35,459 bases of DNA from Bacteroidota bacterium (lineage in GTDB: Bacteria > Bacteroidota > Bacteroidia > Cytophagales > UBA9547), in contig RDZG01000096.1 of NCBI GenBank assembly GCA_004293915.1, positions 1 through 35,459 on the forward strand, in the 5' to 3' direction. Positions 5,629-34,000 of the stretch are shown here, one piece after another. Below the pieces are notes generated by a model, which had not been told where the DNA came from, did no database searches, and saw only the letters and a program-made list of their open reading frames with translations. Position numbers and translations under genes: made by a program. Each line of letters begins with the position of its first letter. Position 1 is the first letter of the stretch.

Positions 5629-8600
5629 TTGGATAGAATTGAGCATATAGAAAAATACAGAAAAAACATAAACTCAGCCAACAAAGAGCTTACTAAAAAA
5701 GAGCTTTTTAAGGATTTGTTACAAAAATTATATTCAAATCATGCTGATATTTCTGATTTAATTACTAAAATGAGCTTGGGTTCTGAAACCACAGTTTTGA
5801 ATATTCCTCGCAAAAACAAAATACACAGAGGTAGTGCCGACACGCTTTACAACAATGTAATTATCGAATTTGAAAATGATTTAAAAAAATCATTAACACA
5901 CGCAAAAGAGCAATTAGCTGGTTATTTATTAGGCAAATTTAATTCAGGAGATGGTTATAATTTTACTCTAATTGCATCAGATTTCATTACTTGGAAGGTA
6001 TATATAGTTGATATTGAGTGCATTGCGAATTTGGGTTCATTGCAAGAAGATGAATTGAAACTTGTAGAAATAAAAAATTCATCGTTTGTACTTTCTGAAA
6101 CAAATGGCGAAGATTTTTATTTTTGGATAGATCGTTTTCTATTTCGAGAAGAAAAAGAAAAAGCTACTTTAGAACGCATCGACCGTGCTTTTGGCTTACA
6201 AAGTTCTATATTCATAGAAAGCTTTAGATTGATGGATTCGCATTTTAACGACATTAAAAAATATGGAGAGATTCAAGTTTCGGTTGAGCAATGGCGTAAA
6301 TTTCTTTCTATTGCTTACGGAAGTTTCGAAGCATCAGATGCTAATTTTCTCATTCATAGTTATTTAAGTGTGTTTGCAAAACTATTGGCTTATTCTGTTA
6401 TAAGTAATGAAGATTTTATAGAAGACGAAAAAATGAAAGCCATTCTCGATGGCGAAGCATTTAAAAATAAAAATATTGAAAATTTTGTTGTTGATGATTT
6501 TTTTCATTGGATAAAATCTGATCGTACATTTACGGTTTTAAAAAAAGTATTTAGAATTATTGCCCAAGAAATCTCAACTTTCAGTTTTAGCCAAATAGAC
6601 GAAGATATTCTTAAAGGTGTTTATCAAGGTTTGATAGATATAGATACCCGACACAGTTTGGGAGAGTATTACACCCCAGATTGGCTTTGCGAAAAAGTAG
6701 TTTCCGAATATGATTTTAAAATAAATAGCAAAATTTTAGACCCAAACTGTGGTTCGGGTTCGTTTTTGAGAGCAGCAATTCAACGATTGAAATTTTTGCA
6801 TCCTAATATTTCGGCTACCGAAATAAATCATGCCATTTTTGGTATTGACATACACCCTTTGAGTGTACAAATTGCAAAAACAACTGTCCTGATAGCGCTT
6901 GGCAAAACCATTCAAAATGCACAAAAACCAATCAGACTAAATATAATTTTAGCAAACACCTTGCTTGCTCCCGATGGCACTTTGGAGCTTTTTGGAAAGA
7001 GTTTTAAAATGAGTATTGATAAAGAACTTTTGGTTCTTAATTCTCAAATATTTGACGATATAAAACTTTTTGACGATGCACTAGACGTTTGCGAAAGCCT
7101 TGCCGACAGCACATTAAACAAGAAAAAAATTGATATTATTGGGTTTGAAAACAATTTGAGGCGTGTACACAAAAACGGTGGTTTAACACCAACTGTGATA
7201 AATGATTTTTATAAAATATACGAAAGTTTCAAAAAAGTAAAAGAAACAGGAAGGGATAGTATTTGGAAATTTATTGTTCAAAATTTATATAAACCTTATT
7301 TTTTGGCTAATAAATTTGATTTTATAGTCGGAAATCCACCTTGGTTTACATATGCAAGTATCAAAAACGAGGAGTATCAAAAAACGCTGGATGCATTAGC
7401 CGTAAAATATAAAGTAATGCCAGCAAAAGTTGCAAACTATCCACATTTAGAAATTGCTGCCATTTTTCTGTCTTATTGTAGTGGCTATTTTTTGAGAGAA
7501 AACGGAAAATTGGCAATGGTTTTGCCTCGAAGTTTTTTTAATGCCGACCAACATGATAATACCAGAAATGGCTCATCAGTAGGATTTAAAATAACTTCGA
7601 TATGGGATTTAGAAAAAGTTTATCCACTTTTTAATATTCCTAGTTGTGTGTTTTTTGCCGAACATCAATTAGCTTCTACGAAAAAAAAGCTGGAATTTGA
7701 TGGACTTTATTTCTCGGGCAAAATACCTGCTCATAACTGCCATTGGGAAATTGCCGAACCAAAACTTACTATTACACCACAAAAATTATATTATGCAAAA
7801 CAAGGCAAATCTTCGGCTTTCAGTACATCACCAATAACTTCTTCTAAAAACAGATTAAACCCTTATAAAAACGAATTCAAACAAGGCGCAACAATTGTGC
7901 CTCGTACGTTTTATTTTATTGATATTAATCAAGATGTGCCCGAAAATTGGGACTCAAACCCAGATTGGAAAGATAGAATTTTCAACATAAAAACAGCCGA
8001 ACATGTAAAAGCCGATGCCAAAATGCCTTGGAAAAACATTCATTTTGCCGATAGAATGGAGTCAGAATTTATGTTTCGTACTGCATTAGCAAAAAATATT
8101 ATGCCTTTTTTGCTTTATAAACCTGAATTGGTTTTGCTTCCTATTATTGTTGAGACTAAAAATGAAGAAAAAAATATAAAACTTTGTACATCAGATTATT
8201 TACTTGATAATGGCTTTAGATATGCTAGTAAATGGTTCAATAACAATGAAAATATTTGGAACATACATCGAACTGAAAAAAACAAAAAAATCACTTTATT
8301 AAATTACCTGAATTGGCAAAATAAATTAACAGATCAAAACCTAAATTTGCCATATTTAGTTATTTACACAGCATCAGCCAAAGACGCAAACGCCACAGTT
8401 GTAAAACGAGCAGAACTAGATTTGGAGTTTATTGTAGAAAGTAAAGCGTATGTATTTTATACAAAAAAATTAGAAGAAGCATATTATTTATCTGGATATT
8501 TAAATGCTTCAAAACCTAATTTGATGATGAAAGACTTTCAGTCCAAAGGTTTGTTTGGACCTAGAGATGTACATAAAAAAATATTAGATATTTATTTTCC

Positions 8601-8808
8601 AAAATTTGATAAAACAGATGATAATCACATAGAATTGGCCCAATGGAGCGAAAAAGCTCATGAAAAAGCTAAAGTTTATATCAAAAGCAATCCACCAACG
8701 GAGCAAAACCTTAATTCTATTGCCTTAGGGAAATTGCGTTCTGAAATAAAAAAACATGTAAAGGATGAATTGTCGGAAATTGATACAATAGTAAGTAAAT
8801 TATTGTAA
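5629..8808 (+). CDS. Single-chain restriction-modification-like enzyme (type IIG / Eco57I-class N6-adenine methyltransferase)
   Basis: A 1059-residue protein with an adenine-N6 DNA methyltransferase core. SAM-binding motif I is DPNCGSGSF (371-379) and catalytic motif IV is NPPW (569-572) in FIVGNPPWFTY. The N-terminal segment contains GSADTLYNNVIIEFEND (about 68-84), resembling the PD-(D/E)xK nuclease fold often fused to such methylases, although the final ExK lysine is not clear. The C-terminal half, after about residue 700, would be the target-recognition part. Such enzymes cut unmodified foreign DNA and methylate self DNA from one polypeptide. No separate restriction, specificity or helicase gene lies next to it. 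The start is TTG at 5629, with no ATG between it and the upstream in-frame stop at 5596. A methylation-only role is an alternative if the nuclease is inactive. Confidence 0.8.
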   Translation: MDRIEHIEKYRKNINSANKELTKKELFKDLLQKLYSNHADISDLITKMSLGSETTVLNIPRKNKIHRGSADTLYNNVIIEFENDLKKSLTHAKEQLAGYLLGKFNSGDGYNFTLIASDFITWKVYIVDIECIANLGSLQEDELKLVEIKNSSFVLSETNGEDFYFWIDRFLFREEKEKATLERIDRAFGLQSSIFIESFRLMDSHFNDIKKYGEIQVSVEQWRKFLSIAYGSFEASDANFLIHSYLSVFAKLLAYSVISNEDFIEDEKMKAILDGEAFKNKNIENFVVDDFFHWIKSDRTFTVLKKVFRIIAQEISTFSFSQIDEDILKGVYQGLIDIDTRHSLGEYYTPDWLCEKVVSEYDFKINSKILDPNCGSGSFLRAAIQRLKFLHPNISATEINHAIFGIDIHPLSVQIAKTTVLIALGKTIQNAQKPIRLNIILANTLLAPDGTLELFGKSFKMSIDKELLVLNSQIFDDIKLFDDALDVCESLADSTLNKKKIDIIGFENNLRRVHKNGGLTPTVINDFYKIYESFKKVKETGRDSIWKFIVQNLYKPYFLANKFDFIVGNPPWFTYASIKNEEYQKTLDALAVKYKVMPAKVANYPHLEIAAIFLSYCSGYFLRENGKLAMVLPRSFFNADQHDNTRNGSSVGFKITSIWDLEKVYPLFNIPSCVFFAEHQLASTKKKLEFDGLYFSGKIPAHNCHWEIAEPKLTITPQKLYYAKQGKSSAFSTSPITSSKNRLNPYKNEFKQGATIVPRTFYFIDINQDVPENWDSNPDWKDRIFNIKTAEHVKADAKMPWKNIHFADRMESEFMFRTALAKNIMPFLLYKPELVLLPIIVETKNEEKNIKLCTSDYLLDNGFRYASKWFNNNENIWNIHRTEKNKKITLLNYLNWQNKLTDQNLNLPYLVIYTASAKDANATVVKRAELDLEFIVESKAYVFYTKKLEEAYYLSGYLNASKPNLMMKDFQSKGLFGPRDVHKKILDIYFPKFDKTDDNHIELAQWSEKAHEKAKVYIKSNPPTEQNLNSIALGKLRSEIKKHVKDELSEIDTIVSKLL

Positions 8809-14119: not shown

Positions 14120-14428
14120 TTATTCTTTTTTAAACAAAGTTACAATCCATGTGCTAAGTGTTAATAGTAAAGATAGAATCAATAAAACATTGAAAAACAT
14201 TTTTAACTGTGTCGCAAAACTTGCTAATGAAACTGCTAACAGGTTTGAAGATGGATAACCAGAAAAGGATATGGCAATAAAAACATTCTCGATATAATCT
14301 GCAAACCCAGTAAAAAGTGGAATGAGAAACAAAAACTTCATCCAGTTATTTCTTTTTCTGAATACTAAAAAGATAAGTGATGAAAATGTAAAGGCATAAA
14401 TTGCAGGGAAGAAAATATCGCAAAGCAT
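14120..14428 (-). CDS. Membrane protein of unknown function, C-terminal part of a frameshifted gene
   Basis: A 102-residue product of the downstream frame containing three predicted membrane helices: IYAFTFSSLIFLVF, MKFLFLIPLFTGFADYIENV and MFFNVLLILSLLLTLSTWIV. The listed ATG (14428) falls in the middle of what was probably one protein. Upstream residues in the other frame end LGVEGRSIYK, and one extra A in the minus-strand AAAA (plus strand 14433-14436) gives YKNFMLCDIFFPAIYAF and a 185-residue four-helix protein. I do not recognise the family. Confidence 0.6.
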   Translation of the reverse strand: MLCDIFFPAIYAFTFSSLIFLVFRKRNNWMKFLFLIPLFTGFADYIENVFIAISFSGYPSSNLLAVSLASFATQLKMFFNVLLILSLLLTLSTWIVTLFKKE

Positions 14429-14676
14429 GAAATTTTATAAATACTTCTGCCTTCAACGCCTAATTTGTCTAAGTCGATGGTAAAACTTTCAACATTATAA
14501 CCTTTTGCTTGTAAATCAAATGGTGTAAATGTTGGCGAAATTTCTTGCATAGAAGGTGTACTAGTTGGTAGACCTGGGGTATTCATGAAAACATTAAATA
14601 CAATTAGTAACCCCACGAGAATAAAAATGAAAGGTTTTTTAGATGTTCTGTCTATTATAGAATGTACATTATTCAT
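14365..14676 (-). CDS. Membrane protein of unknown function, N-terminal part of a frameshifted gene
   Basis: It starts at ATG 14676, only 5 bp after the stop of the SnoaL-like gene, so the two form one transcription unit. The N-terminal part has one membrane helix (FIFILVGLLIVFNVFM) and a non-cytoplasmic segment rich in Pro, Ser and Thr (TPGLPTSTPSMQEISPTFTP). The genuine frame appears to end near residue 82 (SIYK); the last 22 codons before the stop at 14365 look unrelated and are probably read out of frame. With a one-base correction the protein continues into the three helices of the entry at 14120-14428. Function is unknown; its neighbour suggests a role controlled by the HxlR regulator. 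Confidence 0.6.
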   Translation of the reverse strand: MNNVHSIIDRTSKKPFIFILVGLLIVFNVFMNTPGLPTSTPSMQEISPTFTPFDLQAKGYNVESFTIDLDKLGVEGRSIYKISCFAIFSSLQFMPLHFHHLSF

Positions 14677-14681
14677 GGTTA

Positions 14682-15140
14682 TTATTTTGATTGAAGCTGT
14701 TTGATTAATCCTAATGTGTCCCATGAGCCTTTGCCCATTCCATCTGTAACTATTCCATTTTTAAAAGTCCAAAACCATGAGCCTTTCCTAGTTGCTTTTT
14801 TGTTGGTCGGACTTATGCCAAGAAATGCACCTTTCTGAGTTCCAGTGGCTATCCATCTCACGGCAACCATATCATTTTCTGCAATCATAATATCTATTGT
14901 GATAATTAAGTCTGGAAATGCAGTACGTATTTGCTGGGTAAATGCTTTTTCTTCTTTGGCAAATTCTGGTACAAAATATTTGTCTGCAAATGTGGTATCT
15001 CCTTTATTGAATAGATTATCTACAATGTCGAGCATGAGTTTTTTATTGTCTGCATTAATTTTCATAGCATCTTTGGTTTGTGCAAAAGTTGTGGTACTAA
15101 TAAATAGCACAGCAATTAAAGAAAATATTTTATGTTTCAT
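14682..15140 (-). CDS. Secreted SnoaL-like (ester cyclase-type) protein
   Basis: 152 residues from ATG 15140. Residues 1-21 (KHKIFSLIAVLFISTTTFA, cut before Q) are a clear signal peptide. The mature part has the SnoaL/NTF2-like layout: N-terminal helices (MLDIVDNLFNKGDTTFADKYF), then AFPDLIITIDIMIAENDMVA, WIATGTQKGAFLGISPT and a final GSWFWTFKNG strand. The fold binds small hydrophobic ligands and includes polyketide cyclases, but export and the lack of a biosynthetic neighbour argue against a cyclase role, so the substrate is unknown. An ATG at 15152 would add four residues but lies inside the inverted repeat and at the predicted transcription start, so 15140 is preferred. It is divergent from the HxlR gene and probably under its control. 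Confidence 0.8.
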   Translation of the reverse strand: MKHKIFSLIAVLFISTTTFAQTKDAMKINADNKKLMLDIVDNLFNKGDTTFADKYFVPEFAKEEKAFTQQIRTAFPDLIITIDIMIAENDMVAVRWIATGTQKGAFLGISPTNKKATRKGSWFWTFKNGIVTDGMGKGSWDTLGLIKQLQSK

Positions 15141-15174
15141 TTTTGATATCATATTCTACAAACATATAAATTTG
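15140..15174 (+). promoter_or_regulatory. Promoter of the HxlR-family gene
   Basis: -33 element TTTTTG at 15140-15145, a 21-base spacer, and -7 element TAAATTTG at 15167-15174, an exact TAnnTTTG. Predicted start is about 15181, 35 bases before the ATG. It overlaps the oppositely directed promoter of the SnoaL-like gene. Confidence 0.6.
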
Positions 15175-15189
15175 CATTATGGTATCAAA
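15159..15189 (-). promoter_or_regulatory. Promoter of the SnoaL-like/membrane-protein operon
   Basis: On the minus strand, TTTG (15189-15186), a 19-base spacer, then TATGTTTG (15166-15159): a complete match to the Bacteroidota TTTG-N19-TAnnTTTG promoter. Predicted start is near 15152, so the leader before ATG 15140 is about 12 bases. Confidence 0.65.
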
Positions 15190-15215
15190 AAGAAACTATA
15201 AAAACTACTTACCAG

Positions 15216-15593
15216 ATGGTAACTACTCAAAAAAAGAAAAATACAGGAAATCCATTTGATTGTCCATTAACGGCTGCAATAGATAAAATAGGGGGAAGAT
15301 GGAAGCCGATTATATTATTCTATTTATCCAATGGAAGTAGGCGATTTGGACAATTGGGAGCATCCATACCTATGATTTCTAAAAAAGTTTTGTCACAGCA
15401 ATTAAAGGAGTTAGCTGACGATGGTCTTATTGTTCGCAAACAGTTTAATGAAGTTCCTCTACGTGTTGAGTATTCGTTGACTGATTTTGGTAAATCTGTG
15501 TTACCAATTCTTGATAAAATTTGCGAATGGGGAAAGCAATTTGTTGACATTACACAGTCAAAGGAAGTGTTGTTATACAAAACTTATAAATAA
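15216..15593 (+). CDS. HxlR-family winged-helix transcriptional regulator
   Basis: 125 residues, a normal length for the family. The signature CPLTAAIDKIGGRWKPIILF (16-35), RRFGQL and SKKVLSQQLKELADDGLIVR make up the winged helix-turn-helix, with the recognition helix around KKVLSQQL and the wing at YSLTDFGKSVLP. HxlR/YodB-type proteins are dimeric repressors or activators. Several respond to electrophiles or oxidants through a conserved N-terminal cysteine, and Cys16 here is at that position. The gene is divergent from the SnoaL-like gene and reads from a promoter interleaved with that gene's promoter, which suggests control of the neighbour and of itself. Confidence 0.92.
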   Translation: MVTTQKKKNTGNPFDCPLTAAIDKIGGRWKPIILFYLSNGSRRFGQLGASIPMISKKVLSQQLKELADDGLIVRKQFNEVPLRVEYSLTDFGKSVLPILDKICEWGKQFVDITQSKEVLLYKTYK

Positions 15594-19235: not shown

Positions 19236-22200
19236 ATGAATATCTTAAAAAACAAATTCTTATGGATTGCTGTTAGCGTTTTGGGTGCTACTGGTGCATT
19301 TTTTTATTTTTCAAAATCAAATTTACAAGCCAAAAGCAAGTTTAATCCTGCTTTCTCGGCTTATATTTCGGCTTATACGAGTGGAAAAATAAGCATTGAA
19401 TCTTCTGTTCGTGTGCAGTTTACTTCTGATGTGGTTTCGCAAGAAGTTGTAAATCAAGAAGTTGAAAACAATCCTTTTTCATTTAGTCCGTCTATTGAGG
19501 GCAAAGCAGTTTGGATTAATAAAAACATATTGGAGTTTAAACCCACAAAAGCCTTGGCATCGGCTACGGTTTTTGATGCAAAATTAAATATAGGTGATCT
19601 AATCCAAATGCCCGATGGATTAGAAACTTTTATGTTTGGTTTTGAAACCATGCCACAAAGCTATGAAATAGATGTTTTAGGTATTTTTTATCCTGACAAT
19701 ACCATCGAAAGTATGGTGCTGAGAGGGTATATAAATACTTTTGATCCAGCTGAAAATGAGGAAGTTGAAAAAATGTTTCCTGCTGATACAAAAGTAAAAT
19801 GGCAGCACGAAAATTCGAGAAAACATCTTTGGGAAATTCAAGGATTGAAACGCAAAAAAGATTCTTATGTTTTCAAACTTGCCCTCGATGGAACTGCCAT
19901 TCGTGCCGAAACCAATCAGGAAATTAGCTATCTTATTCCAGCAAAACAAAAATTTGAAATTATCTCTGCTGATGTGTTGAATAATGAAGGGCAGTTTGTA
20001 AAAGTAGTATTTTCTGATCCTTTATTAGCATCTCAAAATCTTTCTGGAATGGTAAGTTTGGGTACTTTGCCTGAGTTTAGAACCGTTTTAGATGCCAATG
20101 TTTTGTATGTCTATCCACCAGTTAAACAAACGGGAGAATTGCTTTTAAGCATTTTTGCAGGTATTAAAAATAGTGCAGGAACGCAACTTAAAAAAACTTT
20201 TACAAAAAACTTACTTTTTGAGGAATTGAAACCTGCCGTTCGCATTCTAGGGAAAGGAATTATTGTGCCGAGTTCAAATGGAATTACTTTGCCTTTCGAG
20301 GCTGTAAACGTGAAAGCTGTTGAGGTTTCTATATTTAAAGTGCATGAAAACAATATTGTTCAATATTTCCAAACCAATAGTTATAATGATAAATATGGTC
20401 CTAGCGAATTGCGAAGGGTTGGTAAAAAGATTATTCATAAATTAGTTCCCATAACAAACTCAAATACAGATGATTATAATTCTTGGAAAAAATATGCTAT
20501 TGATTTATCAGATTTGGTAAAACCCGAACCAAGTGCTATTTATCAAGTTTCGTTGAGTTTTAAAAAAGAACATAGCACGTATTCTTGCGATGGAAAACAA
20601 GATTTTACACCAGTTGTTGCTCAAACCATAACAAATGATGAAACTTTAGATGAAGACAATGCAGTTTTTGATTCGTATTATGGCGAAGATTATTATTATC
20701 CCGAAGATTATGAGTACAGCGAAAGAAACAATGCCTGTGAAAATTCTTATTATACATCAGAAAATACAAAATCAAAACGTTTACTCTATTTTTCGGATTT
20801 AGGACTGATTGCAAAACGCAATACCGCTGGCGAATTACTGGTTTTTGCATCCAATATTCTAACTACAAATCCTGAAAAAGACATAGAAATTCAAGTTTAT
20901 GATTATCAAAATCAATTATTAAATGCTCAAAAAACTGATGGCGATGGAAAAGCATTTTTTTCGCTTAAAGCCCGACCTTTTTTAGTAATTGCAAAAAAAG
21001 AAGCACAACGTTCGTATTTGAAATTAGACGAATCTGCGGCATTAACCACCACGTTTTTTGATGTTTCAGGAGCCGAAATTCAAAAAGGTCTCAAAGGTTT
21101 TGCCTATGGCGAACGAGGTGTTTGGCGACCAGGCGATAGTTTATTTTTAACTTTTTTGATTGAAGATAAATTGAATAAACTGCCTGAACATTACCCTGTT
21201 ACGATGGAATTATCAAATCCACAAGGGCAATTGGTTTATCAAACTGTAAATTCAAACGATGTAAATCGGTTTTATAGTTTTGTTTTCAAAACAGCCGAAA
21301 ATGCCCCAACTGGTCATTGGCAAGCGGTTTTCAAAATGGGTGGCATTCGTTTTTACAAAGACATTCGTATCGAAACCATTATGCCTAATCGCTTAAAAAT
21401 CAATCTCGATTTTGATAAAAAAGCCATACTTTCGAGTGATAATTCAATAAAAGCAAATTTAAAATCATTGTGGTTGCATGGTGCTCCTGCCTCAAATCTT
21501 TTGGGAGAAGTAAATTTGATTTATACCAAATCGGAAACAAAATTTAAAGGTTTTGAACGCTTTGATTTTGAGGATATTACCAAATCTTTTTATGCAGAAC
21601 AAACAGAAGTTCTAAATCAGAAATTAGATGCTAATGGGATAGCAAATTTTTCTGTAAATATGAATGATGAAATGGCAGCTTCGGGTATGCTTAATGCGTT
21701 TTTTAGAGTAAAAGTTTACGAAGATGGAGGTGCAGCCAGCACAAGTAGTTTTACCTTGCCTTATTCGCCATTCCGTTCTTATATTGGTATTGCAGCACCA
21801 AAAAGTAAAAACGACAATGCTTTTGTTTACGAAACTTCTACTCCACAAACTATAGAAATTGCAAATGTAAACGAAAGTGGTTCTGCCATAAATAGTTCGG
21901 TGGAAGTGGCACTTTATAAACTCGATTGGCGTTGGTGGTTCGACCGCAGCAATTCGGATATTTTTATGGATTTTAATGCGATTTCTCCTATTAAAACACA
22001 AAAAGTTGCCATCACTAACGGAAAAGGAAGTTTTAAAGTAACCATTGATGATCAAGATTGGGGCAGATATATGATTAGGGCAATTGATAAAAATAGTGGA
22101 CATGTTGCTACTAAAGTTTTGTTTTTCGATTGGCCCGGCTATGCTTCTCCAAGTGCTGGTAACCCAAATGGAGCCTCTGTTTTGAGTATTTCTACTGATA

Positions 22201-24095
22201 AAAAGGTCTATCAAGTTGGCGAAAAAATCAAGGTAAATATTCCAAGTGCAGGGGTTGGAAAAGCTTTGGTTTCTATCGAGTCTGGTTCTGATGTCATTCA
22301 AACCCAATGGATTGATACAAAACAAGGCTTAACAGTTTTTGAATGTGAAGCAACCGAAAAAATGGCACCTAATATTTTTGTAAACGTAACTTTATTGCAG
22401 CCTCATAGTCAAACCGTTAATGACATGCCTATTCGCATGTATGGAATTTGTCCTGTGTTGGTTCAAAATCCAAATACCATATTAAAACCTCAAATTATAA
22501 CAATTCCAGAATTTAGACCGTTAGAAAATTGTAAAATAAAAATAAAAGAAGAAAATGGCAAAGCCATGACTTATACTTTAGCCATTGTGGACGAAGGTTT
22601 GTTGGATATTACACGATTTACAACTCCAGACCCGTATGCAAATTTTTATGCTCGTGAGGCATTGGGAATTACATCTTGGGATTTGTATGATTTTGTAATG
22701 GGTTCGACCGCAGGACAAATGAGTCGGATGCTCAGTATTGGTGGCGATGAGGGTTTATCTAAAGGCAAAGATTCGCAATTGAATCGTTTTAGACCTGTAG
22801 TAAAATATTTAGGTCCATTTGTTCTCAAATCAGGAAGCGAAAACGAACATACTTTTTCAATGCCAAATTATATTGGTTCGGTAAAAATCATGGTTGTGGC
22901 TGCTGATAAAAATGCTTTTGGAAATGCCGAAAAAGTAGTACCTGTTCGCAAACCATTGATGCTTTTGGCAACCTTGCCTCGTGTGTGTGGTCCTGATGAA
23001 GAGATATTATTGCCCGTAAATATTTTTGCAATGGATAATAAAATCAAAATCGTAGATGTAAAACTCCAAACTTCTGGTGTGATTGCACCACAAGATGCAG
23101 ATAATCAAACATTTGATTTAAAAGGACAAAAAGATGGGATGGTGTTTTTTAAACTAAAAGTAAAACCTACTACAGGCAGTGGAACAGTAAAAATTACTGC
23201 TACTTCGGCAGGAGAAACAGCTATTTATGATGTAAAAATCGAATCCAGAAATCCGAATACAGAACAAACCAAAGTGATTGAAAAAATGCTCCAACCAAAT
23301 GAAGAATGGATATCAAATCTTTCTCCTTTTGGGATTTTAGGTACAAATTCTGCAATGCTTGAAGTCAGCAATATTCCTGCTTTAAATTTAGAATCACGAT
23401 TAAAATATGTAATTAAATATCCCTACGGCTGTGTCGAACAAACTACTTCTTCTGTATTTCCACAACTGGTTTTAGGCAATTTTGTAGAGCTAAACGAAGT
23501 CCAACAAACACAAATTTCGAATAATATAAAAGCCGGAATTGCTCGTTTGGCAACTTTTCAAACACCAGAAAGTGGACTTGGATACTGGCAAGGCGATAGT
23601 TATGTAAACGAATGGGGGACAAATTATGCCAGTCATTTTTTGGTTGAAGCCGAAAAAATGGGATATGTAATTCCTTCCACTATGTTGGCTTCATTAAAAA
23701 GATTTCAACAAAAAACGGCTCGAAATTGGCAACCTAATCGTCAAAATCAATATGCCTCCGACCAAGTACAAGCGTATCGTTTGTATGTGTTGGCTTTGGC
23801 AAATGCTCCCGAACTTGGGGCAATGAATCGATTAAAAGAATATGTTGGTATCTCTACCCAAGCAGCTTGGCGTTTGGCAGGTGCTTACGCTTTGGTTGGA
23901 CAAAATGAAGTAGCAAATGCCATTATTTCTAACCGCTCAAATACTATTCAATATCCTAAAAATGAACTATTTACAAACGATTATTTTGGTTCTGATATTC
24001 GTGATAATGCCATGATTTTGGATGTTGTGGCTCAACTTGGAATGAAAGATAAAGCTTTTATTTTGGCTAAAAATGTAGCAGTCAAACCTATTTGA
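19236..24095 (+). CDS. Bacterial alpha-2-macroglobulin, main part (frameshifted before the C-terminus)
   Basis: 1619 residues; with the next entry the restored protein would be 1852, close to the size usual for Bacteroidota homologues. An N-terminal membrane segment or uncleaved signal (FLWIAVSVLGATGAFFYF) lacks a lipobox cysteine. The macroglobulin MG domains fill most of the length, with FAYGERGVWRPGDSLFLTFL (about 622-641) as a typical bacterial MG motif. The thioester site is CVEQ (Cys1399-Gln1402) in YPYGCVEQTTS, followed by the alpha/alpha thioester domain. The family traps proteases in the periplasm by covalent attachment through the thioester. It is often paired with penicillin-binding protein 1C, which is not present here. 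The frame ends at TGA 24093 right after a TTT run. Confidence 0.9.
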   Translation: MNILKNKFLWIAVSVLGATGAFFYFSKSNLQAKSKFNPAFSAYISAYTSGKISIESSVRVQFTSDVVSQEVVNQEVENNPFSFSPSIEGKAVWINKNILEFKPTKALASATVFDAKLNIGDLIQMPDGLETFMFGFETMPQSYEIDVLGIFYPDNTIESMVLRGYINTFDPAENEEVEKMFPADTKVKWQHENSRKHLWEIQGLKRKKDSYVFKLALDGTAIRAETNQEISYLIPAKQKFEIISADVLNNEGQFVKVVFSDPLLASQNLSGMVSLGTLPEFRTVLDANVLYVYPPVKQTGELLLSIFAGIKNSAGTQLKKTFTKNLLFEELKPAVRILGKGIIVPSSNGITLPFEAVNVKAVEVSIFKVHENNIVQYFQTNSYNDKYGPSELRRVGKKIIHKLVPITNSNTDDYNSWKKYAIDLSDLVKPEPSAIYQVSLSFKKEHSTYSCDGKQDFTPVVAQTITNDETLDEDNAVFDSYYGEDYYYPEDYEYSERNNACENSYYTSENTKSKRLLYFSDLGLIAKRNTAGELLVFASNILTTNPEKDIEIQVYDYQNQLLNAQKTDGDGKAFFSLKARPFLVIAKKEAQRSYLKLDESAALTTTFFDVSGAEIQKGLKGFAYGERGVWRPGDSLFLTFLIEDKLNKLPEHYPVTMELSNPQGQLVYQTVNSNDVNRFYSFVFKTAENAPTGHWQAVFKMGGIRFYKDIRIETIMPNRLKINLDFDKKAILSSDNSIKANLKSLWLHGAPASNLLGEVNLIYTKSETKFKGFERFDFEDITKSFYAEQTEVLNQKLDANGIANFSVNMNDEMAASGMLNAFFRVKVYEDGGAASTSSFTLPYSPFRSYIGIAAPKSKNDNAFVYETSTPQTIEIANVNESGSAINSSVEVALYKLDWRWWFDRSNSDIFMDFNAISPIKTQKVAITNGKGSFKVTIDDQDWGRYMIRAIDKNSGHVATKVLFFDWPGYASPSAGNPNGASVLSISTDKKVYQVGEKIKVNIPSAGVGKALVSIESGSDVIQTQWIDTKQGLTVFECEATEKMAPNIFVNVTLLQPHSQTVNDMPIRMYGICPVLVQNPNTILKPQIITIPEFRPLENCKIKIKEENGKAMTYTLAIVDEGLLDITRFTTPDPYANFYAREALGITSWDLYDFVMGSTAGQMSRMLSIGGDEGLSKGKDSQLNRFRPVVKYLGPFVLKSGSENEHTFSMPNYIGSVKIMVVAADKNAFGNAEKVVPVRKPLMLLATLPRVCGPDEEILLPVNIFAMDNKIKIVDVKLQTSGVIAPQDADNQTFDLKGQKDGMVFFKLKVKPTTGSGTVKITATSAGETAIYDVKIESRNPNTEQTKVIEKMLQPNEEWISNLSPFGILGTNSAMLEVSNIPALNLESRLKYVIKYPYGCVEQTTSSVFPQLVLGNFVELNEVQQTQISNNIKAGIARLATFQTPESGLGYWQGDSYVNEWGTNYASHFLVEAEKMGYVIPSTMLASLKRFQQKTARNWQPNRQNQYASDQVQAYRLYVLALANAPELGAMNRLKEYVGISTQAAWRLAGAYALVGQNEVANAIISNRSNTIQYPKNELFTNDYFGSDIRDNAMILDVVAQLGMKDKAFILAKNVAVKPI

Positions 24096-24793
24096 ATACA
24101 CAAGAAATTGCATATTCGCTTTTGGCTATGTCAAAAATGTTGAATTTGATGGGCAAAAAAGACGAACTTAAATTTAATTTTTCGCAATCTGGACAAAAAA
24201 ACATACAAGCTCAAACTGCTTTGCCCTTGGTTCAACAAAAACTCGAAAGCGAAAAACCGAATCAAATCACAATCAAAAATACCTCAAAAGCAGTAGAATT
24301 TGTTCGCATTATTCAAATTGGTACTCCATCAGCAGGAAATGAGACATCAAATGCAGAAAATATTACATTGGATATAAAATATGTAAATCCAAAAGGCGAA
24401 AACATAGATATTTCAAGCCTAAAACAAGGCACAAAATTTTTTGCAATAATTAATATAAAACATTCAGGTATATTGCCTCGCTATCAGAATTTGGCATTAA
24501 AACAAATTTTTCCATCGGGGTGGGAAATCACAAATACTCGGTTAGAAACCCCAGAGTCAGTGGTGCCAAAAGCTAGTAAGTTTGATTATCAGGACATTAG
24601 AGATGATCGAGTTTATACTTTTTTCTCTTTGTCGAAAAACGAATCCAAGACCTTTTATGTAAACTTAACTGCATCTTATATTGGCAAATATTATCTGCCA
24701 GCTCAAAGTGTAGGCGCTATGTATCAATCGCAAATCAATGCTACACAAGCAGGAAAGTGGATAAACGTAATTGGGAATGGAGATATAAATTAA
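24092..24793 (+). CDS. Bacterial alpha-2-macroglobulin, C-terminal part
   Basis: 233 residues in the -1 frame relative to the preceding entry, overlapping it by 4 bp. It starts LNTQEIAYSLLAMSKML, which is the expected continuation of the thioester domain (TQE-AY-LLA), and continues into the receptor-binding-like terminal domain (FPSGWEITNTRLETP and FYVNLTASYIGKYYLPAQSVGAMY). One added T in the TTT at 24091-24093 reads PILNTQE and fuses both parts. The TTG at 24092 is therefore unlikely to be a true start. Nothing supportable was seen in the 247 bp to the next gene. Confidence 0.85.
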   Translation: MNTQEIAYSLLAMSKMLNLMGKKDELKFNFSQSGQKNIQAQTALPLVQQKLESEKPNQITIKNTSKAVEFVRIIQIGTPSAGNETSNAENITLDIKYVNPKGENIDISSLKQGTKFFAIINIKHSGILPRYQNLALKQIFPSGWEITNTRLETPESVVPKASKFDYQDIRDDRVYTFFSLSKNESKTFYVNLTASYIGKYYLPAQSVGAMYQSQINATQAGKWINVIGNGDIN

Positions 24794-25040: not shown

Positions 25041-28000
25041 ATGAAATCAAAAATAATACTATTAGTTTCTTTATTGGGTTTTTCAAAAATTGTTTCGGGG
25101 CAAACACTACGTTATTGGGTTTCAGGCGGGAACGGATTTTGGACTAGTTCAACCAACTGGAGTACAAGTTCAGGTGGCACAAGTGGTGCAAGTGTTCCAA
25201 TAGGCACCTCTTTAGGCGCAGTTTTTGATGCAAATTCTGGTACTCCAGTTGTTAATTTGGCAAATGGTTTGGGTAGTAGTACAGTTTTAGGTTCTCTATT
25301 AGTTTCTAATGTTCCAAATATAACATTTACAGGAGGTGGAGGAGGAAGTAATGATTACATAATAGGAGCAGGTCATCCTGGAGTAGACTTAAGTATTCTA
25401 AACTCAAATGTTTTAGTTACTGGAGGTGGTGGAAATGCAATATTTAGATTATCAAATACTGGAGGCAATACAGGAAATATGATAAATTCTACAGTATTAC
25501 AGAGAGATAATGGTGGTACTGGAGCTTTTTTAGTTAATAATAATACCCCGTTCACGGTTTTTACTATTGATGGTACAAGCACATACATCGCAGAAAGAGG
25601 TCCCTCTTTCTTAGTTGGTATTTGGCAAGATGGTTCTAAAATGATTGTAAGAAACAGTGGTTTAACACCTGCACTTATGGATCAAAATTTTTATGATTTA
25701 ATATTTAATATTCCTGCAGCTAGCATGACAGTTAGTTCTTTATGTGGTGTTAGAAATAGTATAACAGTTCAAAATTCAAATACAACTGGAGTAATTTTAG
25801 GTGCAAACTATTCGTTACCTGGAGGGCTTAGCGTTTCAGGGACTGGCACGATAAATTTATCTACTTTTAATTACACATTCGGTGGGGTAGGTATTGTTGG
25901 ATCGGCTAATCGAATAATTACTAATAATAATAATTTAACTTATAATATTTCTTCTCCATCAAGTTTACCTTCAAATGGTGGTTCAGCACAATTAAATTCA
26001 GTTTCTATAAATTCGGTAGTTGATTTGTCATTAACAGGGAATACTAATATTTCAAATAACCTTACCTTAAATAACGGTGTCATCTTATTAGGAGCTAACA
26101 GCCTCTCTGTTGCTGGTTCTGTTTTGGGTTCGTTTTCTAATAATTCAATGATTAGCCAAAATAACACAGGTCGATTTATTAAAACTTATTCAAGTTTGCC
26201 ATCTACTTTTGTTTTTCCTGTTGGTAGAGGCTCAATTGGAGCATCCAACAATATATATATGGGGTTAGATATGATTTCTTTAACTGCTACTGCTCCTGCG
26301 AATGGCACATTATCTGTTTTTGCTTCTGAAACTCCTCCTACTATTCCAAATATTTCTGTTTCTAACCAAGCCATTAAAAAATATTGGAACATCAATGCAC
26401 CAGGCTTATCAAATGTGAATGCTTCTTTTACAACAACTTTTACAGGAGTTGATTTGGCAAACATTGGTTTAGAAAGCGAGTACGTTTCTGGCTATAATAT
26501 TTCACCTAGCATTTTATGGACTCCCGGTTTATTGTCTGAGGTTAATAATAAAGTAATTTCATTTAATTTGGTTGGTTCTGATAATCTTTCAGGAAATTAT
26601 TCGGCTGGCAATCCACTAGCGTTCGCATCTCCCACTTTATATACTTACAAAAATGGTTCTTGGAACGACCCCAATACTTGGACTTTAGACCCTTCTGGTA
26701 CTAGCCTGGTAAGTCCTCAAGTTCCTTCACCTTCTTCAACGCTTTATTTTTTAAATGGTCGAACGGTTACATTACCAAATAACATTTCAACCACTGGACA
26801 TAATTTAATTATAAATTCGGGTTCAACTCTGGATTTGAAAACTTTTCGATTATCAACACTTTCTGGTTTAGCCGGACAAGGGACTTTGAGATTAAATTCT
26901 AATCAATTTCCAACTGTGGTTGGTTTAAATACTTTTGTTGAAGTTGGCGGTGGAACAACTGAATATTATGATTTATCAACCACCCTTCCTAGTTATGTTC
27001 CTAAATACAATAATTTGATTGTATCTAAATATGATAATTCTGCTAATAATTATGTTTACAAGCAAAATGGTAATTTAGTTGTAAATGGATTTTTGAAAAT
27101 ATTCAACAGTACGAATACAGGCACATCTACTTTAGAAATTGGCGGAACCGTAGCAAGTAATATTACAGTTTTAGGGAGTTTTGTGGTTGGTGATGCCATT
27201 GGCGGACCTACAAATGCAGTTGCTTCTTTGAGCGGAGCAAATTTTCAACATAGATTAGTGATTTTTGGCGATTTACTTAATTATGGAACAGTAGATTTTT
27301 CAAATAATGCTCAATTTAGTGCACCTACTACTCAAACCTTAAGAATTGAGTTTAAAGGATCTTCTAACAATGCTTTTTTCTGCGATGGTCCAACCGAAAT
27401 TTATGATATGACAGTTAATAAAGGAACGGATCAGACTTATATTTTAAGTTTATCGGCTACATCTCCAACACATTTTAGATTCATGACTGATCTTAATGGT
27501 TTTCCTATTTTGATGGGTACATTGCGATTGGGTAACAATATTGTTTTGGATAGGCTAAAAACTAGTGGTAATTTTGACATTGGTTCAGATATAAATTCAG
27601 GTTGTCAATTATGGATTGATGGAGCAAGTGTATCGAGTGTTTGTCCAACTGGTAGCAATGGAGTTGCATTAGTACCTTATGGTAAATTTAGAATTACCTC
27701 TGGTTCGATTACAGTTACTGGAGCAGGTATAGTTCCTCGCTATGATGGAGAAATTTTTATAGAAGGAGGATATGTAAATGTGCCTAAAATTCGCACATCT
27801 GTGGTTGCTGGAGTTACTCCAAGAGGTACGTTTTTTATGTCTGGTGGTGTTTTAGATATTAATGGTAATGTCCCAAATAAAGAAGGTTTTGGAGATCATT
27901 CTGTTTTTATGTACCCGTTTGAAGATGCTTCTTACATAGTTTCTGGAGGTACAATAAATATATATTCTATTGGAGCAAATAATAATTTTGGTAGTTCCTT

Positions 28001-31000
28001 ATTTGTGCTTAATTCATTAGCTAAAAATATCAATGTTACTGGCGGAACTACAAATATGACTATTTCTGGAGCAGTAGATTTTAACAATAATATTAACTCA
28101 AGTGCGCCATTTTATAACTTAAACATTTTTAGAACCACGACTATAGGTGGAAATAGATTTATTGCTTTAAAAGATTTACAATTAGACCCTGCTTTTTCAT
28201 CTCCTGGATACAATACTTTTATTCCTGCACGTCCATTAACAGTTCTAAATAAATTATATATTGATGGTACAAATGCCCCACTTTTGAGTCTATCAGGACA
28301 ATCTCTATTTATTAAAAAAGATTTAGAATTAGCACCAAATTCAAGATTAGAACCTACTAGTTCGGATGTTTATTTTGATGGAAGTGTGGCTCAAGATATT
28401 ACGATGAATAGCACTTTTTTAGGAATTGCTCGTTCGTTAAATTTTTCTAACTCAAGTGCAAATTCTATCTTTTTGAAAGGTACATTATCTAATTTTACTA
28501 CCAATGGTTTAAACATAACTTCTGGGTTTGTAAACGATGGTGGCAAAACAATTAAAGTTTTAGGAAATGTATTAAATAATGGACGCATTTTTGGTAATGG
28601 TAAAATTGAATTTGTAGGAAGTTCTGCTGTTCAAAATATCAATGGAAACGGAAGTGGCGTTTTTGGTAATGTTGATTTAAATAATACCAATCCAGCTTCA
28701 GATGGCGTAAAATTAAATACAAACGCATCTGTAAAAGGTGTTTTGAATTTAGTATCAAATAAAACATTTGACATTAATACATTTAAAATTCGTATTGACA
28801 GTACAGCAGCAGCAAATGGAAGCATAATTTCGACTGGTGCAAGTTTTAGCAATACTAAATTTATTAAAACATCAGGAAATCAATCGGATGGAGGAGTGGA
28901 GCAATTTGTGTTAAATAATAATTCGTTTTTAGTTCCAATTGGTACAAATTCTACTTATTCACCAATAAATGTTTCTTTTACTGGAGTTACAGGTGCTAGT
29001 AATCAAGGGTATATTCAAATGTCTGTTAACAATGCTGTATTATCAACATTATCTATTACTGGAGTTCCAAATTCAGCATTATTATATAATTGGAGAGTGA
29101 GAGCAAGTGGCTTTATTTCAATGCCTTCTGTAAGTTATACATTTAATTCAAGTGTTGCGGGAATGTGGCCAACTGGAGTAATTGGAACTCCATCTAATTT
29201 TGTAGGAGGAAAAGTTATAATTCCAAATCGTTTTCCTGAAACTACAACAGTTACTTCAAATGGATTAATTTTGATTTCTTCTCATACTGTTCTTGCAGAT
29301 GCTTCTTATACCGCTGCTCAAGTTGGTAGATTTAATGGAAATGTTAGAATTTTTTATACAAGAAATTCAGATTGGGGTAGTGGTGCATATTGGGATGACG
29401 CAAACACATGGTCTTTTACTTCTAATTCAGGACCAGCTGATACGGGTGGTTTAATTCCTGGTCCTAATGATATAGTTTATCATGGGTATGGTTATCCTGC
29501 TGGCTCTGGAACTCAAGGTCCATTTGGAGGTGCTGGACCTCCTACGAATGGTTACCCTCATTGGACATCAATTAGAAATAATATTACTGTTGCAGGGGTT
29601 ATATTTCAAGACTTTCCAATCTCTACTGCATGGTACACAGCTATTTATTTAAGAGATAATGTAAATGCCAATTTGGGTGTAATAAGAAACCAAACTCCAA
29701 CAAACTCTTCGGGGTCAATTTTGTATTATATTGATAATGCTTTAAATAGAGCTACTTTAACTGCTGATTTAGGTGAATTTAGCAAAGGTTCCTTAAACGA
29801 AATTTATTATATACTTAGAAACAATGGTTCAGTACAAATTCAGCCAGGTATAACAGAATATCCAAATATGAGACTTGAAGGTGAGGGAGGAGCTTCTGGA
29901 ACAAGAATTTTTAACTTCCCTGATAATAATGTTTTAATTAATGGGTATGTTAATTTAACAGGAAGAGGAAATGTTTTGCAAATGAGTGCTACGACTACCT
30001 CTGGTGGAAATGTTACAATTAAAGGAAATTTAAACTTACAAAACTTTAATGAAGGTGATTCAGAGTTTAGATTTCCTTCTACTGGTACTGCTAAAACTTT
30101 GAATGTTGGAGGTTTAAATATTTTAAATAACTCAGCTGAGACTGGTTCTAGCGGTGCTCCAACAGCTAATTTTGGTGTTTCGGTAGATAATTCTACTCCT
30201 AGTTCTATTACACATAAATTAATTGTAAATAATAACATTACGCATCAACAAGGACGTTTTAATTTGTTTAATGGTAATAATCCAACTGACAATAATTGTA
30301 CTTTAGAATTTCAAGGTACATTTTCGGGTAGATACTTAAGAACCGGGGGAACTGTTCCAAATCTTTATAAATTAAATATCAATAAATCTAATGCAAATGC
30401 TTCTTTTTCTTTCAATAGCAGTGCCAATCTTTTGGGAAATGGAAATGAAACTATAAAACCCATTACATTTAATTCTGGGTTGTTAATCTTGAGTTCTTCT
30501 GGAATTAATTTTAATCTAAGTTCCGGTGGAGCAGTTGCCAACATTCCATGTAATGCAGGTTTGCAAGTAGAAAATGGAGCTATTGTTTCTATGTCTAGCA
30601 CAACAGGTTTAGTTTTGGATGGTAAATTAACCATAGGAAATAATGGAACTGCTAATTTTAACGATGGAACAAATAACACATTTATTGAATATTCTACTTC
30701 GGGTTGTGCCGAATTAAATGTATTAGGAAATGCATCATTAAATGTGGGTAGCCAAATTAGAAGAAGTTTATTTTCTAATGCAGGTGTGTTAAAATACACT
30801 CAAACAGGCGGGAATGTAACTATTGGTGGACTAGGTGCAGTGGCTACAAATGCTAAATTTGAATTAGATAATGCAGGAAGTTCTATCTCAATGACTGGTG
30901 GTAATTTTTATATTCAACGTGGTGGTGGAAATGCAACTTTTGGTGACTTATATTTAGACCCTGGAACTTCAAATATTACAGGTGGTTCTTTTATATTTAG

Positions 31001-34000
31001 TCCATTAAATGCTGGTTCAAATCAAATCTATCGTTTAATTTCAAATCCTTCTTTGCATAATGTTTCAATAAGTGGAAGTGGGGCAAATACAGCAAATGTA
31101 AATGTATTAGTAAATCCATTAGTAATAAATAATAATTTTAATTTATCAACTAATGGCTCTTTATCTGCCAATGGTTTTGGTTTAAATTTAAAAGGAAACT
31201 CAACAATTTCAGGTTCATATGTCACAGCTGGAAATACTACAAGTTTTACAGGTTCAGGTTTACAAAATTTGGTCTTATTGTCTGCCGTTTCTTTCAATAA
31301 CTTTTTAGTTAATAAATCCAATTCGTTATCAGTTACTGGTTTAAATACAACAGTTGCTGGATTGTTATCAGTAATTAATGGAACGCTTGACAATACTAAT
31401 TCTTTGGTTTCGACTGCAGATGTTTTCAATAGTAGTATCATTACAGGTTTAGGAAAATTAGTAATGGGTGGAACATTACCTAAATCTGTAACTGGAAATG
31501 ATAATGGAATTTTCAATAATATAGATATAACCAACTTCAATGGCGTTAATTTTTACAATGCTATTTCTATTAACGGAAATCTTAATTTCATTAATGATGG
31601 GATTTATATGGATGATAACCAATTAACGCTTGGTCTTAATTCTTCAATAATTGGATTTAATGCTTATAAATTTATTCGTACAAATGGTGTTTCTTCTGAT
31701 GATGGTGTCATTAAAGTTTTACCAGCCACAACATTTAATTATACCTTTCCTGTCGGATATTTTGGGAAATATACACCTGTAACTTACCAAGCAACTTCTA
31801 ATAGTGCAACGGGTTCTATAAAAGTAATTCCGGTAAATAAATTTCATCCTTTAAATACCGATCCTGCTAACACGCAATTAGATTATTATTGGATTGTTAC
31901 TTCATCGGGTTTTAGTGGACTTACTGTAAATCATACTTATACTTATAGTCAAGCCGATGTAGTTGGTACAGAGTCTTTATACAAAGCTGGAAGAAGTATC
32001 AATGGCGATTGGGTACCTTATTATGGCGGTTTTGCATCAAGTATTGGTGGTGTAAATCTTTCTAATAATCAAATTTTCGTTAACGGAGTTAATTTTGTTT
32101 TTGGAGAATATACCGCTGGAGAAACATCTGAATTTCAACAAGTTTTAACTTATTATTCGAGAGATGCAACCACTGGTGGAAACTGGGATGATGTTAATTC
32201 ATGGTCCACAATCGGTCATAATGGTTCTATTGCAGGATTTACACCCGTTGGACAACCAGTTATCATTAAACAAGGTCATACAATTTTTTCAAATGGAAAT
32301 TTAAGAGAAGCTTATTCTACTTCTTTATCTGGTGTTTTGGACTTAAATACTTCTTTTGGGCATAATTTAGGTATTATTCGCGGAAATGGTACTATTCGTA
32401 TCGCATCAGATCCAAGTTTATTGTTTGTATTACCTGCAGGTCAGATGACTGCCTTTTTGAATACTACAACTGGCGGAACTTTTGAATTTTATGGAACAAA
32501 TGGAGGAGATATTCCTGCTTTAAATCCTCCTGACTTTCCTCGTTTTAACAATGTGTTATTATCAGGTATTGGTTCTAGAAATATTACGTCCAATTGTATT
32601 ATTGGAGGAAATCTTTCTATCACTGGAGGAGTTTTGCGAGTGCCAAATAATTCAAATATTACAATTTATAAAAATTGGATAAACACAGTTGGCGTAGGTG
32701 GTTTTGCAAAAGGTTCAACAGCTCCAATTATGAGTTTTGTAGAACTTTTAGGTACAAATCAATCAATAATTGGTTCAAATTTATTTGCTGGCTTATTAGT
32801 TGCTAATGGAGGTGTGAAATCTGTAAGTGCTAATAATTCCGTTTCTGGAACGCTAAATTTATCAAATGGAATTGTTGATATGGGTTCAAATACGCTATCA
32901 ATGATAACAACTGATGCAAATGTCATAGGTGGTTCTGCCAACAGTTTTGTAAAAGGACTTTTACAAAAAAGAATATTAACTTCTGGTGTAGCTGTAAATT
33001 ATGAGGTTGGAGAAAACGGCTATTCGCCTTTAAGTGTAACATTCCCTTCTGTTTCTTCGCAAGGTAATTTAGCAGTAAAAGCGGTTGCAGGTGCTCATCC
33101 TCAAATTTCTACTAGCTGTATAAATTCTGCAAAAAGAGTAAATCGCTATTGGAATATTGTTTCTTCAAATCCTGTTAGTCCGCTTAATTATAATGCTACT
33201 GCAACTTTCAATAATCCCGCTGATATTTTAGGAGGAGCCAATACATCTTTATTTATTCCTTCAATTTACACAAGTAGTGTTTGGTCTTTGCCAGGCGTTG
33301 GAACTCGAAATTCAACATCTACGCAAGCAACTGGAATTACTTATTTCGGTGATTTGATTATTGGAGAACCTTCTTCTCCTGTAGGAGTTACAATTGTAGG
33401 ACCAGCTATGCCGGTTTGTGCTGGAACAATTCTTAATTTTACCGCCAATGGTGTAAATGGTGGCACAAGTCCTGGCTATAATTGGTATAAAGATGTTTCG
33501 GGAACTACCACCGCAGGTTTAGCTTTAACTCAAGTATTTTCAACAACAGCTTTAGGTAATGGAGATATAGTAAGAGTTACTTATACATCAAGTCAAGCTA
33601 GTTGTTTATTTAATAATCCAGCAGTTTCAAATGGAATTACTGTTTCTTATGGTGCTTCTGGTCAATGGATTGGAGCAGTTTCAAATGTTTGGACAGTTCC
33701 AGGAAACTGGTGTGGAGGTATCGTTCCTACTTCTGCTTCTGATGCGGTTATAAATACTGCACCGACTTATCCTTTGATTACAGCTACTACAGATATTCGC
33801 AATTTTAATTTGGGAGTTGGTACAAACATTACTATTAGTAGTCCATTTAGAATAGCTGGTGATTTTGTAAACAATGGTAATTTTATTGTTACTGGTAATA
33901 ATCAATTTCAGTTAAATGGTTCTGGAAATCAAGCGATTAGTGGTAGTTCAATTACAAGGTCTCCTAATTTACAAATATGGGGGGCTGGTACTAAAACATT

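Follow-up and report, generated by a model that had tools for sequence, protein, structure and literature searches.

A conserved palindrome over the hxlR start codon as a probable HxlR operator at a divergent hxlR/SnoaL locus of a Bacteroidota bacterium

The locus lies in a 35,459-nt window (the whole stretch of DNA that was analysed) of a draft genome of 3.85 Mb in 156 contigs, and it comprises an hxlR gene, a divergently oriented SnoaL-like gene, and a membrane-protein-like gene behind the latter (Table 1). Both the promoters and the relatives of this genome are of the Bacteroidota kind. The HxlR-like winged helix domain of the hxlR product was confirmed (PF01638, E-value 6e-32, 109.8 bits against a cut-off of 20.8), and a search for structural relatives identified HypR, HxlR, and YodB as its solved relatives. 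The N-terminal Cys16, to which the first-pass annotation had drawn attention, is real and was found to be invariant in 8/8 aligned proteins; the same alignment showed that Cys103 is present in the close orthologs only. For the SnoaL-like gene, ATG 15152 is most likely the start codon rather than the alternative ATG 15140, because it is the sole ATG at that gene end with a match in two of the related loci described below (L031 and L033).

Orthologs of the SnoaL-like protein, showing 75–84% identity, were found in L031 (a Chitinophagales MAG), L032 (Fibrella), L033 (Fibrivirga), and L035 (genome G062). All four relatives carry the same trio, that is, hxlR divergent to the SnoaL-like gene with the membrane-like gene downstream of it. 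The ortholog search spanned the order, the class, the phylum, and two families, and its gain was a single locus (L035 of G062), while the plasmids searched yielded only relatives below 60% identity. The trio is rare; beyond these loci, none was detected in 390 genomes of the order, 395 of the phylum, and 295 of the class. The five HxlR–SnoaL gaps (window, L031, L032, L033, and L035) served as the comparative set. The third gene, whose product matches no Pfam or NCBIfam family, encodes about 186 aa in the relatives and is intact in L031, L032, L033, and L035. In the window it is split into two frames with a break near 14420–14430, which could mean that the gene is genuinely lost or that the draft assembly contains a homopolymer error.

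Table 1 Features of the hxlR/SnoaL locus (positions are those of the window).
Feature	Position	Strand	Remarks
Third trio gene	14120..14676	-	Membrane-protein-like; frameshifted in the window
SnoaL-like gene	14682..15152	-	PF07366, E-value 2e-18; apparent signal peptide
hxlR	15216..15593	+	125 aa; HxlR/DUF24 winged-helix regulator; invariant Cys16
hxlR -33-like TTTTTG	15140..15145	+	Within the first SnoaL codons
hxlR -7 element TAAATTTG	15167..15174	+	N21 after TTTTTG
SnoaL -33-like TTTG	15186..15189	-	Missing at that position in the four relatives
SnoaL -7 element TATGTTTG	15159..15166	-	N19 after TTTG
Predicted hxlR transcription start	15179	+	4 nt after -7; from the spacing in PMC6847099
Predicted SnoaL transcription start	15154	-	4 nt after -7; 4–5 nt rule of PMC6847099
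Left arm TTTTTGATATCAT	15140..15152		In SnoaL codons MISKM (ATG ATA TCA AAA ATG)
Right arm ATGGTATCAAAAA	15179..15191		Only L035 and L031 retain its GGTATCA part
Invariant run AAACTACTTACCA	15202..15214		13 non-coding columns, 5/5; last six are the left palindrome half
Palindrome TTACC-AGAT-GGTAA (TTACCA-N2-TGGTAA)	15209..15222		Overlaps the hxlR start codon; conserved 5/5

Other parts of the window were also inspected. A long gene that looks macroglobulin-like (19236–24095, plus strand, 1619 aa) runs to a stop and resumes in a different frame (24092–24793, plus strand, 233 aa), and this second frame break in the window is possibly a sequencing error. Another frame (25041–35459, plus strand) stays open for at least 3473 aa without a stop and runs off the window; the minus-strand frames inside it are probably its mirror. 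A large restriction-modification-like protein with the adenine methylase motif NPPW is encoded between housekeeping genes (5629–8808, plus strand).

Both pairs of promoter-like elements reported in the first-pass annotation were located exactly at the positions given there when the sequence was read directly. Alignment of the five gaps showed that the position of the SnoaL -7 element is kept in all of them (the relatives read TACCTTTG, TACCTTTA, or TATCTTTA), at a distance from the ATG of 4 nt in the relatives and 6 nt in the window. The hxlR -7 element of the window recurs unchanged in L035; L031 has a degenerate form of it (TATATTGG), and it is unrecognisable in L032 and L033. The earlier proposal of divergent promoters for the two genes in this gap is thereby supported, with the SnoaL -7 kept in 5/5 loci and the hxlR -7 clear in 2/5. 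As for the TAHHTTTG rule of Bacteroidota sigma-ABfr promoters, the hxlR -7 conforms to it in both loci where it is clear; the SnoaL -7 fits fully in L035 and L031, carries a G at -9 in the window, and ends in A in L032 and L033. In Flavobacterium johnsoniae, transcription starts 4–5 nt after the -7 element (PMC6847099). Applied to these -7-to-ATG distances, the rule predicts that the SnoaL mRNA is leaderless or nearly so, with a leader of 0 nt in the four relatives and 1–2 nt in the window; such mRNAs are a minority type, accounting for 5.5% of all mRNAs in F. psychrophilum (PMC9723704).

At 15166/15167 the -7 elements of the two promoters meet end to end. This back-to-back arrangement is uncommon, though not unique: the exact pair CAAANNTATANNTTTG has 8 copies in the 3.85-Mb genome versus 5 for the reversed control, and a rough look based on open reading frames only placed about half of the 8 copies between divergent ones. 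Across the window, TTTG-N17-23-TANNTTTG pairs were not enriched (6 versus 4.9 expected). A scan for E. coli-type sigma-70 promoters, which gave 9 sites versus 6.7 expected in shuffles, was set aside.

The longest invariant run of the non-coding gap is AAACTACTTACCA (column shuffle 5e-5, a value that ignores the relatedness of the loci). It continues directly into NATGGTAA, and jointly they form TTACC-N4-GGTAA; the remaining gap sequence is only 48–74% identical among the five loci. An in-frame TAA in L032 and L035 halts any upstream extension of hxlR, which makes the left palindrome half non-coding. The right half also encodes MVT, with which the HxlR proteins of two more distant loci (L002 and L003) likewise begin, and coding constraint could keep this half. 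Despite the low identity of the rest of the gap, the distance between the SnoaL -7 and the palindrome is 42/43/43/43/43 nt (window first, then the four relatives). Counted from the predicted SnoaL start, the palindrome centre is at -61.5 in the window and at -62.5 in the four relatives. Relative to the predicted hxlR start, the centre lies at about +37 and the span is about +30 to +43. The perfect 6-2-6 palindrome has a single copy in the genome, and copies with one mismatch are at background level.

The same palindrome recurs at other HxlR genes. In L002, L003, and L004, which hold the nearest other HxlR genes (50–58% identical), GTTACC-N4-GGTAAC lies 37–59 nt before the start of the HxlR gene, whose divergent neighbour is an NmrA-like oxidoreductase gene; the palindrome is also found upstream of the HxlR gene of L026. 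In L002–L004 the HxlR -7 elements face a weak divergent -7, and additional GGTAAC/GTAAC half-sites lie close to the HxlR start in L002 and L003. The core TAC-N6-GTA was present in 11/28 upstream regions of HxlR homologs versus 1.3 expected (0/200 shuffles), a set that included four regions where the motif had already been seen. A held-out set of 40 further upstream regions, reduced to 28 once similar ones were removed, contained it in 7/28 versus 1.5 expected (1/500 shuffles), with GTTACCTTTAGGTAAC and CTTACCTCCAGGTAAC as examples. The exact motif is missing in 38/56 of the homologs tested. Other TAC/GTA spacings were mostly near expectation; TAC-N10-GTA (7/28, first set) and TAC-N4-GTA (6/28, held-out set) also exceeded the shuffles, and these spacings are perhaps operator subtypes.

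HxlR regulators are numerous in Bacteroidota. A limited literature search found no published HxlR operator from this phylum. In the HxlR (MarR/DUF24) family, a short TAC...GTA palindrome near the regulator's own gene is a known trait, and one is present at 15209–15222. YodB prefers TACT[7]AGTA (PMC8063818), and the recognition helices of DNA-bound HxlR are 34.8 Å apart (PMC7835342); the geometry of the palindrome matches both. Because the TAC...GTA motif is enriched upstream of HxlR genes and resembles the YodB operator, TTACC-N4-GGTAA at 15209–15222 is probably an HxlR operator, and this assignment is the firm part of our explanation. So simple an operator (core TAC-N6-GTA) would aid target prediction for Bacteroidota HxlR regulators.

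These data suggest, with a reasonable degree of likelihood, that hxlR and SnoaL constitute a self-regulating pair in which an operator over the start codon mediates autorepression by roadblock as well as activation of SnoaL from upstream. An HxlR dimer would bind TTACC-N4-GGTAA atop its own start codon and, from there, block elongation, thereby leading to autorepression. Relative to the SnoaL start, the same dimer would be centred near -62, which is too distant for it to occlude that promoter but corresponds to a class-I-type activator position. Around -62 is where upstream activators sit, and it is for these reasons that activation of SnoaL and the gene behind it by the bound dimer is proposed, a guess from geometry whose chances we regard as about even. 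Many HxlR-family proteins are repressors. The HxlR protein of Bacillus is an activator (PMC7835342). The -33 of SnoaL is unconserved, which would suit an activated promoter, yet -33 elements are weak across Bacteroidota anyway (PMC6847099). The SnoaL promoter would then yield a leaderless or nearly leaderless mRNA, and in the window and L035 the abutting -7 elements may add polymerase competition. The most elaborate version, in which the operator blocks hxlR, activates the leaderless SnoaL from -62, and the interlocked -7 elements sharpen the switch, is doubtful. To judge from its sequence, the locus is an ordinary divergent HxlR regulator/target pair of known type.

A different operator had been put forward in the first-pass annotation, in which one dimer on the inverted repeat at 15140–15152/15179–15191 could switch both promoters, giving a bistable-looking switch; two dimers on the repeat would be a variant of this model. 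The repeat is present as described, with arms complementary at 12/13 positions that a repeat search extends to 26 nt (81% complementary); such a 12/13 repeat in the 88-bp gap was matched by 2/300 dinucleotide shuffles, the repeat having been picked after the fact. Its arms frame both -7 elements symmetrically, and GGTATCA of the right arm recurs in two of the relatives. However, when the alignment of related gaps that had been suggested as a check was run on the five loci, the repeat proved unconserved, an outcome that the annotation had itself named as refuting its proposal: it is missing in 4/4 orthologs, where the best 13-nt repeat reaches 8–10/13, the level of shuffles. The left arm belongs to the coding part of SnoaL, and TTGATATCA was upstream of 0/28 held-out HxlR genes. 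HxlR-family dimers grip half-sites about 9–10 bp apart, and the centres of the two arms are separated by 39 bp, which argues against one dimer bridging them. This distance also compares poorly with the 34.8 Å between the recognition helices of DNA-bound HxlR (PMC7835342). Such a switch is highly improbable; the repeat is, on these comparative grounds, a one-genome accident, and the palindrome over the start codon is the better operator candidate. The locus illustrates that, unless orthologs are compared, a striking repeat in AT-rich DNA can be misleading.

Another reading keeps the promoters and gives the operator a minor part, with the abutting -7 elements alone making hxlR and SnoaL transcription mutually exclusive while the operator merely tunes hxlR. 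The predicted divergent starts are 25 bp apart, which would leave no room for two polymerases. The earlier idea of one polymerase at a time stands as a possibility for the window and L035, where the -7 elements abut; it does not carry over to the other loci, since a degenerate hxlR -7 in L031 and an unrecognisable one in L032 and L033 mean that the arrangement is not kept. We regard this reading as improbable. The palindrome might instead act in the mRNA, as a hairpin whose loop contains the hxlR start codon, and not as a DNA operator. A short fragment does fold into a 5-bp stem with the AUG in the loop (-3.8 kcal/mol), but the z-score is only -1.4, a longer leader folds otherwise, and in L002–L004 the palindrome is 37–59 nt from the start codon, making the hairpin very unlikely. 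The reading we prefer is the self-regulating pair with a DNA operator over the hxlR start codon.

Divergent HxlR–oxidoreductase pairs are known as the qorB/ytfG–ytfH type. The paralogous HxlR genes of L002–L004, divergent to NmrA-like oxidoreductase genes and preceded by the same palindrome, resemble this type, whereas the target at the present locus is a secreted SnoaL-like protein together with a membrane-like protein. With the HxlR-family (MarR/DUF24) repressors YodB and QsrR, the window HxlR shares the family, an N-terminal reactive-type Cys, and, in its probable operator, a short palindrome whose TAC...GTA half-sites are spaced by one turn of the helix (PMC8063818). It differs from them in the TAC-N6-GTA spacing within TTACC-N4-GGTAA, in the position of the palindrome over the regulator's own start codon, and in the second Cys (103) confined to close orthologs. 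The Bacillus subtilis HxlR/HypR structures 4a5m and 7bze are among its closest solved relatives. HypR is an activator of the HxlR family in which Cys49 takes part in pairing; in the alignment, the window HxlR has no Cys at that position. B. subtilis HxlR activates hxlAB (PMC7835342) and, unlike it, the window protein has CPL in place of Cys-x-Lys (the residue two positions beyond the Cys is not Lys), so a formaldehyde Cys-Lys cross-link is not expected. As to the promoters, both -7 elements match the TAnnTTTG pattern of Bacteroidota sigma-ABfr promoters, and the start spacing fits as well (PMC6847099), but a G at -9, as in the SnoaL -7 of the window, hardly ever occurs in F. johnsoniae (PMC6847099).
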